A stretch of 64,000 nucleotides of DNA. Origin: Patiria pectinifera (lineage: Eukaryota; Echinodermata; Asteroidea; Valvatida; Asterinidae). The notes under the pieces are model-generated. The model saw only the letters and a list, made by a program, of their open reading frames with translations. It was not told the DNA's origin and ran no database searches. Below, one piece after another: positions 52,001 through 55,000 of the stretch (its first letter is position 1; each line of letters opens with the position of its first letter). The translations under genes were made by a program, and so were the position numbers. The stretch covers positions 2,852,001-2,916,000 of the forward strand of contig CM057145.1 in the NCBI GenBank assembly GCA_029964075.1, given 5' to 3'.

Positions 52001-55000
52001 GTTTTGGAAGGTTAGGGTCGAAGACTGTACCTTCTTCGGCCTTTGTAGACGGCAGCCTAGCGGATGGGATGGCGGAGACGGCTGGTCGGTCAGGATTCTC
52101 GTTGTTGCCCTGGGAGGATTTGGGCACAGTGGCTTTATGCAGCATGTCCGTGCCAGTCTTCATGGCACCAAAAAGTGGCGACACGTTCTCATCTACGAAG
52201 CCAAAATAACAAGATAATGTATTAACAGTTACTAAGTCTGGCGTTTATCGCCAAATTTCATGGCATGAAATGACTGAAAATACTTCTATTCCCCCTGGAT
52301 GGGATGCCAGTCTATTGCAGGTTACTCCCCAGCTAATGCCGTTACTCATACTCCTGGGAGGAGAGAGGCAAATGTGGGTGAAGTGGCTTGCCCAAGGACA
52401 CAATTAACAAAATCAGCAGCGGTATCCTGATTGATTCTGACCCTCTAACCACAAAACGACACTCCACTTATTAAATCTTAAGTTTGGATTGACAGAAATA
52501 TAAGTGCGCCCCTGAAACATACCGTGTGGCACTGTAGAGGCGCACATGTTGCGCAGGTCCACAGTGGGCGGAGCCTAATAAGTATTGTTGGTTTGTGTTT
52601 AGTGTTGACACACTTTGAATTAATCCCCCCCCCCCTTTTCAAATGACAAATTACCTTTTGCATTGATCTCTTTGAGTGGTTTACCTTTTGCATTGATCTC
52701 TTTGAGTGGTTTACCTTTTGCATTGATCTCTTTGAGTGGTTTACCTTTTGCATTGATCTCTTTGAGTGGTTTACCTTTTGCATTGATCTCTTTGAGTGGT
52801 TTACGTGGCATCGCCATCGGGGCAAATCGCGGTGCGATCGTCAGGCAGGTCGTCGGAAGCTTAGGCGGCAGGTAATCGCTGGTGAAGAAGCTGTCCTCCA
52901 GGAGGGTGTTGATGCTGGGCCGCTCGTGGGGATTGTTCTTGAGGAGGCGACTGATGAGCGAGCGCGCCGTGGGGGAGACCTTACAATGCGACGGAATGCT
53001 GTACTCGTTCCTCTTGATGCGTAGATAGGTGTCCTTTAGACATGAGGTCTCGAACGGTGGCTTACCGACTAGAAGTGTGTACCTATCAACAAAAAGTTGT
53101 TCATCAATTATTAGCTAACCATATAACTATCACAAACTGTCAACAACTATAACCCGTCTCTCAATAGCTGTTGTACATGCTGGTCACCATGCAACTACCA
53201 AAAGTCATATGATTAAACCTTATAACTGTCAAAGCTTGTTGAAGTGGTTTGATAGATAGGTGACCATTAATACTGGTACAGCTTGTGTAGCATGGAATGC
53301 AGGAGTGAACCTTTTGTGTCTTCATTGTTACTGAGCTAAATCCATCAGTGGTTGGTGGTAGGCACTCACCAGTGCTGACCCAGCATATCTATCAATGTCA
53401 GTCAAGGCATGGTACTCTCAGTTAAAATACCTACATGTACCACAGCCTGTCAGTTGTACAAATACGAGGCCTAGTTTTAAAGGGAATATACAACATTTGC
53501 AAACATCGAAAAATAAAACTACCAAGTTTTTACGAAATACCTTACTAGGGGATGTTGGTAAATGACAGTCTAAAGCATCCTGTAAAATTATGGCACCTGG
53601 TATGAAGTCATTTTCAAGAAAATTGTATTTTTGTATACATTTCCAACGGTGGTTGGCCGACCACCGTTGGAAAAACCTAACTATTTTTTAACTACTGCTC
53701 CAACTTTACACTTTTTTCAGTCCAAATTTTGTTTGCTATTGGTTACATTTTCATGAGAGGAAGGCCATCAAGACTGGTCCGTTACATTACAATTGTGCAT
53801 TTATAAATGCATTTTATCTTTAGTGGAGTCAAGGAACCAGACTACTTTAACATTTTTGTTTGTTTTCCAGCATTTTAACCAAAAGTTTGTCAGTGTAACA
53901 ATATTTGATCTATTATGCTAACCCCTCAAATAGTTCATTTCTGAAAATTACAGCAAAAGCCAATGATGTACATTCCCTTTAAATACATACAGACCTGTAA
54001 AAACCTGCATACAATCATACAAGACGTTTCTGACGTTCTCTTCAATTACTTACATGATGCATCCCAGAGACCAGGTATCAACTTCATAACTGTGTCCTTT
54101 CTTAGCGAGTACCTCGGGGGCGATGTAGTTGGGAGTTCCACAGAGAGTTCTCTTGCGTTCGCCTTCTCTCTCGATTTTTGTGGCTAGGCCAAAATCTCCA
54201 AGCTGTAACAAAAATGTAATAAATAAAATTACAGTTGCAGGCATGAAGCATTTGTTCTCCTTGATAAAAAAAATTGAAAAAGTGTCCTGCAGACCGTCAT
54301 AGGTAAATAAATGAATACATTTTGGGGGTAATCGTCCTTACTCGCAGCAGAAGCTGAATTGTGGACACGGCTACAACGTGGTAAACGGAAGGCATGTAAA
54401 GGCGCCTTAGGCAGTTACCATACAACCCATGTCGAAAATCAATGAAGAACCTCTACTCACATATGGTCTGAGTTGGGAATCAAACCCGGACAATAGTGGG
54501 GGGACGCTTAGAAAGGGAGAGTTGGGGGAGACCACTGGAAGGGACAATCAAATGCATTGCTGACAACGTCTGACGCTCTTGAAAGCAAAGACACTATGGC
54601 TTTGTGCACATTAGTCGTGCATATTTTTTGCCATTATGTATGCACAAGCCAGTATGCGCATGTGGCCTGTCCCTCCCACTGGGCTGTCAACACTGATCAC
54701 ACAGCGCCCTCTACTGTTTATAGACGGAGTCCAAAATGACAGATATTCAAGTCCAACCTTCAAATCCATGTCGTCGTTGATGAACAGATTTCCGAGTTTC
54801 AGGTCGCGATGTATGATCTGGTTTTTGTGGAGGTACTGCATGGCCAGGATTGCATGACGCATGAAGTAACGCGTCTCTGGCTCCGTGATAGCGCGACGTC
54901 GCTTGTGTAACTCCATCAACGACTGAGGAAGAAAAAGGAGGAAATAAATATAAGTACAAGGCTTTTACAGAAGGGCAAGACTTTTGCAAAAGGGACATTC

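Follow-up and report, generated by a model that had tools for sequence, protein, structure and literature searches.

A tandem array of five perfect 30-bp units at the exon 6/intron 6 boundary of PLK1 in Patiria pectinifera

The window, a stretch of 64,000 nucleotides, contains on its minus strand a PLK1 gene whose sixth exon ends in a tandem array of 30-bp units. The gene, the two exons concerned and the elements lying within the array are listed below.

49056-58077, minus strand: PLK1 gene with 12 exons, modelled as intact between a presumed ATG and the stop (splice model, homology, PDB, Pfam)
52655-53082, minus strand: exon 6 in its longest form, ending at the 3'-most donor (sequence, gene model)
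52031-52192, minus strand: exon 7, with an acceptor common to all five donors (gene model)
52651-52804, minus strand: 30-bp array, five perfect units plus GTAA (TRF, sequence, genome-wide pattern search)
52782-52805, minus strand: RKPLKEIN codons, a D-box-like motif whose Arg is found only in this first copy (gene model, alignment with human RKPLTVLN)

The exon model is based on homology: a human PLK1 sequence was aligned to the window, and the splice sites were read from the DNA. The 12 exons run from 58077 down to 49056; each of the 11 modelled introns begins with GT and ends with AG, a single frame is open to the stop, and the predicted protein is 63% identical to human PLK1 across 593 columns. 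Comparison of a 261-residue partial draft, covering kinase to linker, with the PDB returned PLK1 chains as the best matches (315-329 bits), against 220 bits for PLK2 and 218-219 bits for PLK3. Pfam recognizes in the predicted protein a Pkinase domain (1.2e-71) and a POLO_box domain (2.2e-43) in two stretches. With a kinase domain, polo boxes and a closer likeness to PLK1 than to PLK2 or PLK3, the predicted product belongs to PLK1. The identity proposed in a preliminary description of this DNA is thereby borne out by the PDB scores and Pfam domains, and its exon number agrees with our model, in which the array-bearing exon is the sixth of 12.

A 239-residue query that began where the kinase domain ends and ran to the first polo box found neither another copy nor a retrocopy of PLK1 in the assembly. 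Its six matches comprised four within this gene and two in a PLK-family paralogue on contig C3. That paralogue, at approximately 954.7-954.9 kb, may be PLK2/3-like; no such array was found in the open frame of its exon that follows the kinase portion. Among other genes sought in the assembly, mitochondrial COX1 had no match at E 0.001. Tektin exons, examined for a signal of the phylum, gave a mixed picture: a tektin-1 exon had its highest score with chain 8snb_8Q of sea urchin (177 bits, followed by mammalian chains at 137 bits or less), which favours an echinoderm-like animal, and a tektin-3-like exon scored higher with Tektin-3 chains (up to 197 bits) than with 8snb_8D (124 bits).

The array itself occupies positions 52804 down to 52651 of the minus strand, where the 30-bp unit is present five times, always perfectly, together with 4 additional bp. 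TRF reports the same interval (52651-52804) with a period of 30, 5.1 copies, 100% matches and no indels. Read directly downward from 52805, the minus strand consists of C-GTAA, five perfect copies of ACCACTCAAAGAGATCAATGCAAAAGGTAA, and TTTG. The five identical 30-bp units that had been described at the 3' end of exon 6 are thus confirmed both by TRF and by direct reading. A pattern search of the assembly (613.5 Mb, 1020 contigs), some stretches of which read N, allowing up to three mismatches found the unit five times, every match lying in this array, while a reversed control of the unit gave 0 matches under the same conditions; a 251-bp query of the array region likewise matched a single place in the assembly. 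A perfect five-fold array is beyond chance and requires duplication. Consisting of near-identical tandem units within the range of about 10-100 bp and spanning the boundary, it answers to the description of a coding minisatellite or VNTR at an exon-intron boundary. Among the best literature matches there was no report of a PLK1 exon 6 array, and the unit peptide KPLKEIN was absent from the texts searched. Beside the array, just within intron 6, a run of 11 G at 52625-52635 is likely to be prone to indels.

Zero divergence among the units, together with the adjoining 11-G run, would fit a consensus that had been locally expanded during assembly from a real locus holding one unit or some other number. 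Such an artefact is improbable in a chromosome-scale assembly, in which 22 of the 30 contigs measured exceed 15 Mb, and any long read spans a 154-bp array. Of these 30, C1-C22 measure 15-55 Mb and add up to about 579 Mb, and C23-C30 are shorter than 41 kb. Moreover, consensus errors do not typically take the form of five 30-bp copies. Individuals may nevertheless differ in copy number.

The identity of the units also limits the age of the array. Zero differences in 150 bp (5 x 30) correspond to a 95% bound of approximately 0.02 substitutions per site, equivalent to 2.5-10 My when yearly rates between 8e-9 and 2e-9 per site are assumed; this bound holds if the copies are of equal age and have not been homogenized. 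The earlier statement that zero divergence means a very recent expansion is therefore too strong: the bound allows 2.5-10 My, so that a recent origin is possible but not required.

Each unit contributes a candidate 5' splice site, giving five donors in all, and a G-run lies a short distance into the intron.

52774-52775, minus strand: junction of donor 1, AAG GTAAAC (GT after AAG), one-copy form (donor scoring, gene model)
52744-52745, minus strand: junction of donor 2, AAG GTAAAC (GT after AAG), two-copy form (donor scoring, gene model)
52714-52715, minus strand: junction of donor 3, AAG GTAAAC (GT after AAG), three-copy form (donor scoring, gene model)
52684-52685, minus strand: junction of donor 4, AAG GTAAAC (GT after AAG), four-copy form (donor scoring, gene model)
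52654-52655, minus strand: junction of donor 5, AAG GTAATT, five-copy form, retaining the non-repeated intron side (donor scoring, gene model)
52625-52635, minus strand: 11 consecutive G, +20 to +30 relative to donor 5, a possible intronic enhancer (sequence)

The last exon bases of these donors (52775, 52745, 52715, 52685 and 52655) and the exon 7 acceptor at 52192 coincide with the positions given in the preliminary description. In the gene model each donor joins exon 7 in frame, and donors 1 to 5 yield modelled products of 623, 633, 643, 653 and 663 residues, with one terminal stop each. The claim that the five donors share one phase consequently holds, and it extends to the whole protein, since all five modelled forms are open up to their single terminal stop.

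Donor strength was estimated with a PWM and from the duplex with U1. In the PWM, donors 1-4 score 2.98 bits and donor 5 scores 3.67 bits, values that fall between the extremes (-0.92 and 5.63 bits) found for the gene's eight other scored donors, and the U1 duplex energies are -6.8 kcal/mol for donors 1-4 versus -6.6 kcal/mol for donor 5. The donors of exons 1 and 2, which carry no score, read AAG GTAAAG and AAG GTAAAA and thus resemble the AAG GTAAAC of the array. Because their scores are nearly equal and fall within the range of the gene's other donors, the five array donors are all credible as predicted sites, and the sequence singles out none of them. RNA folding around the donors is not special either (z 0.84; 159 of 200 shuffled sequences fold equally well or better).

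Among equal donors, the intron-proximal one is often preferred, and G-runs close to a donor often act as enhancers. On the strength of this proximity rule, the 0.7-bit PWM advantage and the 11-G run, donor 5, the 3'-most, is predicted to be the main site. The U1 duplex, slightly favouring the upstream donors, runs counter to this preference.

Five credible donors also raise the prospect of a working length switch, whereby a choice among near-equal sites would generate isoforms of one to five units and so tune the opening between kinase and polo boxes or the access of APC/C to a single linker D-box. The five in-phase donors with open products of 623-663 residues and the near-equality of their scores are consistent with such a switch, as is the length of the segment affected. 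From TIAPRF to WISKW of the polo box, the one-copy form counts 116 residues and the five-copy form 156, compared with 90 in human PLK1. Lysines in the whole protein increase from 50 in the one-copy form to 62 in the five-copy form. The unit peptide contains no Ser or Thr.

The human PLK1 destruction box is RKPLTVLNK, with its Arg at R337. Copy 1 of the array, RKPLKEIN, aligns with human RKPLTVLN (a PDB chain shows RKPLT), which places it at the human D-box position, as had been proposed. Copy 1 has the RxxL core of an APC/C destruction box, RKPL at residue 310. The accompanying observation that RKPL occurs only in copy 1 and GKPL in the later ones is also correct: copies 2-5 all read GKPLKEIN and, with Gly in place of Arg, lack the core. 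A regular-expression search for RxxL accordingly gave four matches in the one-copy form and four in the five-copy form, of which one lies in the linker and the remaining three at residues 6, 111 and 566 (one-copy numbering), and no KEN was found in either form. Because copies 2-5 are without RxxL, the array lengthens the linker after a single D-box and does not multiply the degron. A review describes a D-box as taking part in PLK1 degradation (PMC12183085). With neither an added D-box nor, in a unit devoid of Ser and Thr, an added phospho-switch, a length switch appears unlikely, though it deserves some weight; regulated donor choice in PLK1 exon 6 is, as judged from the predicted sites, possible.

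The edges of the array suggest how it may have begun. If only one copy of the unit is left in place, a 26-bp core has GTAA on either side, a direct repeat of 4 bp whose arms start 30 bp apart.

52801-52804, minus strand: upstream GTAA of the direct repeat, lying within the Arg-Lys codons CGT AAA (sequence)
52651-52654, minus strand: downstream GTAA of the direct repeat, with which the ancestral-looking intron 6 donor GTAATT begins (sequence)

The single-copy locus would thus have read CAC-GTAA-ACCACTCAAAGAGATCAATGCAAAAG-GTAA-TTTG, its two arms, 30 bp apart, being part of the D-box Arg-Lys codons and of the 5' splice site, respectively. For a random duplication junction and equal base frequencies, the chance of a microhomology of at least 4 bp is approximately 0.016. 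This GTAA microhomology, absent from the preliminary description, suggests that the array may have begun by slippage between the arms.

We propose that replication slippage or end-joining between the GTAA arms produced an initial 30-bp duplication. The unit arising from this first slip would start with GT, end with AG and hold the whole donor context AAAAG/GTAA. The first duplication would have provided 34 bp of homology, and later slips that much or more, from which expansion to five copies could follow. Since each added 30 bp amounts to ten codons, open in this frame, and brings along a complete donor, splicing and frame would remain intact at each step, and the expansion could be tolerated. 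The main product would be a PLK1 with up to 40 extra linker residues, including 12 extra Lys, after an unchanged first D-box, whereas some mRNA with one to four copies would represent splicing noise. The expected functional effect of the extra residues is small, which suggests near-neutrality; this near-neutrality is a guess, as the linker of a mitotic kinase is a sensitive place. Taken as a whole, the locus is probably best read as a young coding minisatellite, in frame and situated at the exon 6/intron 6 boundary, close to neutral and with mainly the 3'-most donor in use.

The same microhomology would accommodate a more far-reaching proposal, in which the donor in effect replicates itself. 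The match between degron codons and 5' splice site would have seeded a VNTR in which every unit adds ten linker residues together with a working donor, so that one allele would give a ladder of one to five lengths and the ladder would differ among individuals. We regard this as rather unlikely.

A unit that reads GT...AG could also be viewed as a proto-intron, one to four units being removable as an intron of 30 to 120 nt. The array consists of duplicated AG/GT sites, as in the Drosophila introns that originated by tandem duplication (PMC2891723), and the removal of units would always be in frame. The would-be acceptor, however, has only 5 pyrimidines in the 16 positions from -5 to -20, compared with 9-16 of 16 at the 11 modelled acceptors, a comparison that serves as a proxy. 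Even four units reach only 120 nt, and a single unit of 30 nt is too short for splicing. Since the would-be acceptor is so poor in pyrimidines relative to the acceptors of this gene, a proto-intron is very improbable.

The tolerated minisatellite that we favour would also be in keeping with its surroundings. TRF gave 30 rows in the 64-kb window, and minisatellites are common here. For a wider sample of 264 kb, composed of 20 segments of 10 kb from elsewhere plus this window, three arrays combined a period of 15-100 with four or more copies and matches of 95% or higher, and two of them, including the PLK1 array, lie in the window. The rate outside the window, 1 in 200 kb, extrapolates with very wide error to a few thousand such arrays genome-wide. 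Given a few thousand arrays and an assumed few hundred thousand donors, some arrays would fall on donors by chance alone, and a single in-frame case is therefore no surprise that demands selection.

Other repeats were observed in the same DNA. Minisatellites with units of 10-21 bp and up to 84 copies occupy 2097-2654, 18820-19217, 31645-32043, 35553-36482 and 50511-50962. Common to these is GACTTGTGAT or its complement, with 102 exact matches in the window versus 0.19 expected, nearly all of them inside arrays; the GACTTGTGAT arrays are perhaps carried by a mobile element. A further array at 6860-7605 has a 34-bp unit, 22 copies and 97% identity. Within PLK1 intron 6, a SINE-like stretch at 52291-52400 includes CTTGGGCAAG, which has 14 matches in the window at up to one mismatch, versus 3.6 expected. 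Its places are 52387-52396, 49847-49924, 48219-48228, 38091-38100, 20936-21119 and 16328-16337, and the intron stretch 49847-49924 contains two copies.

In summary, the observation is confirmed, and the array is most likely a tolerated product of slippage. If several donors are used, or if copy number varies, the animal would supply natural PLK1 linkers that differ in length but share one fixed linker D-box, and such a series would offer a direct test of linker length in PLK1 autoinhibition and in destruction at mitotic exit. Should the ladder of a self-replicating donor prove true, the natural length series would bear on the linker's part in timing the opening and destruction of PLK1. Otherwise, the locus would serve as a worked example of slippage that can multiply a coding segment, splice donor included, and leave the gene intact.

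Several known systems resemble this locus in part. With respect to the human PLK1 destruction box, copy 1 (RKPLKEIN) aligns, whereas copies 2-5 differ by Gly for Arg. The proposed coupling of degron codons to a splice donor through microhomology in PLK1 was not met among the best literature matches. Human internal tandem repeats were described by De Grassi and Ciccarelli in 2009. In this work, variable internal tandem repeats of duplicated human genes have on average a 30-bp unit in 4 copies, 160 bp in total, and some of them lie at exon-intron boundaries and alter splicing (PMC2812944). Those repeats occur in primate segmental duplications and have RNA support, whereas no second copy of PLK1 was seen and the present array is known from sequence; in addition, the item repeated in PLK1 is the exon's own donor.

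In Drosophila, intron gain has been attributed to tandem duplication of AGGY proto-splice sites (PMC2891723), and an intron gain in potato RdRp is reportedly of the same class (PMC4974935). The PLK1 array is like both in being a tandemly duplicated AG/GT stretch in which multiples of three permit alternative splicing. The duplicated unit becomes an intron in Drosophila and, reportedly, potato, whereas in PLK1 the units are predicted to be exonic and the unit end looks like a poor acceptor. Prawn Rlec lectins carry in-frame coding repeats of 30/33 bp in 1 to 9 units, which are ascribed to slipped mispairing (PMC7536079). The prawn repeats belong to a multigene immune family, in whose exon 2 they lie, and apparently have no splice donor (PMC7536079), whereas the PLK1 unit carries one. 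With the human repeats, precedents of comparable size are already on record for the junction of exon and intron (PMC2812944), and the PLK1 array belongs to this known kind.
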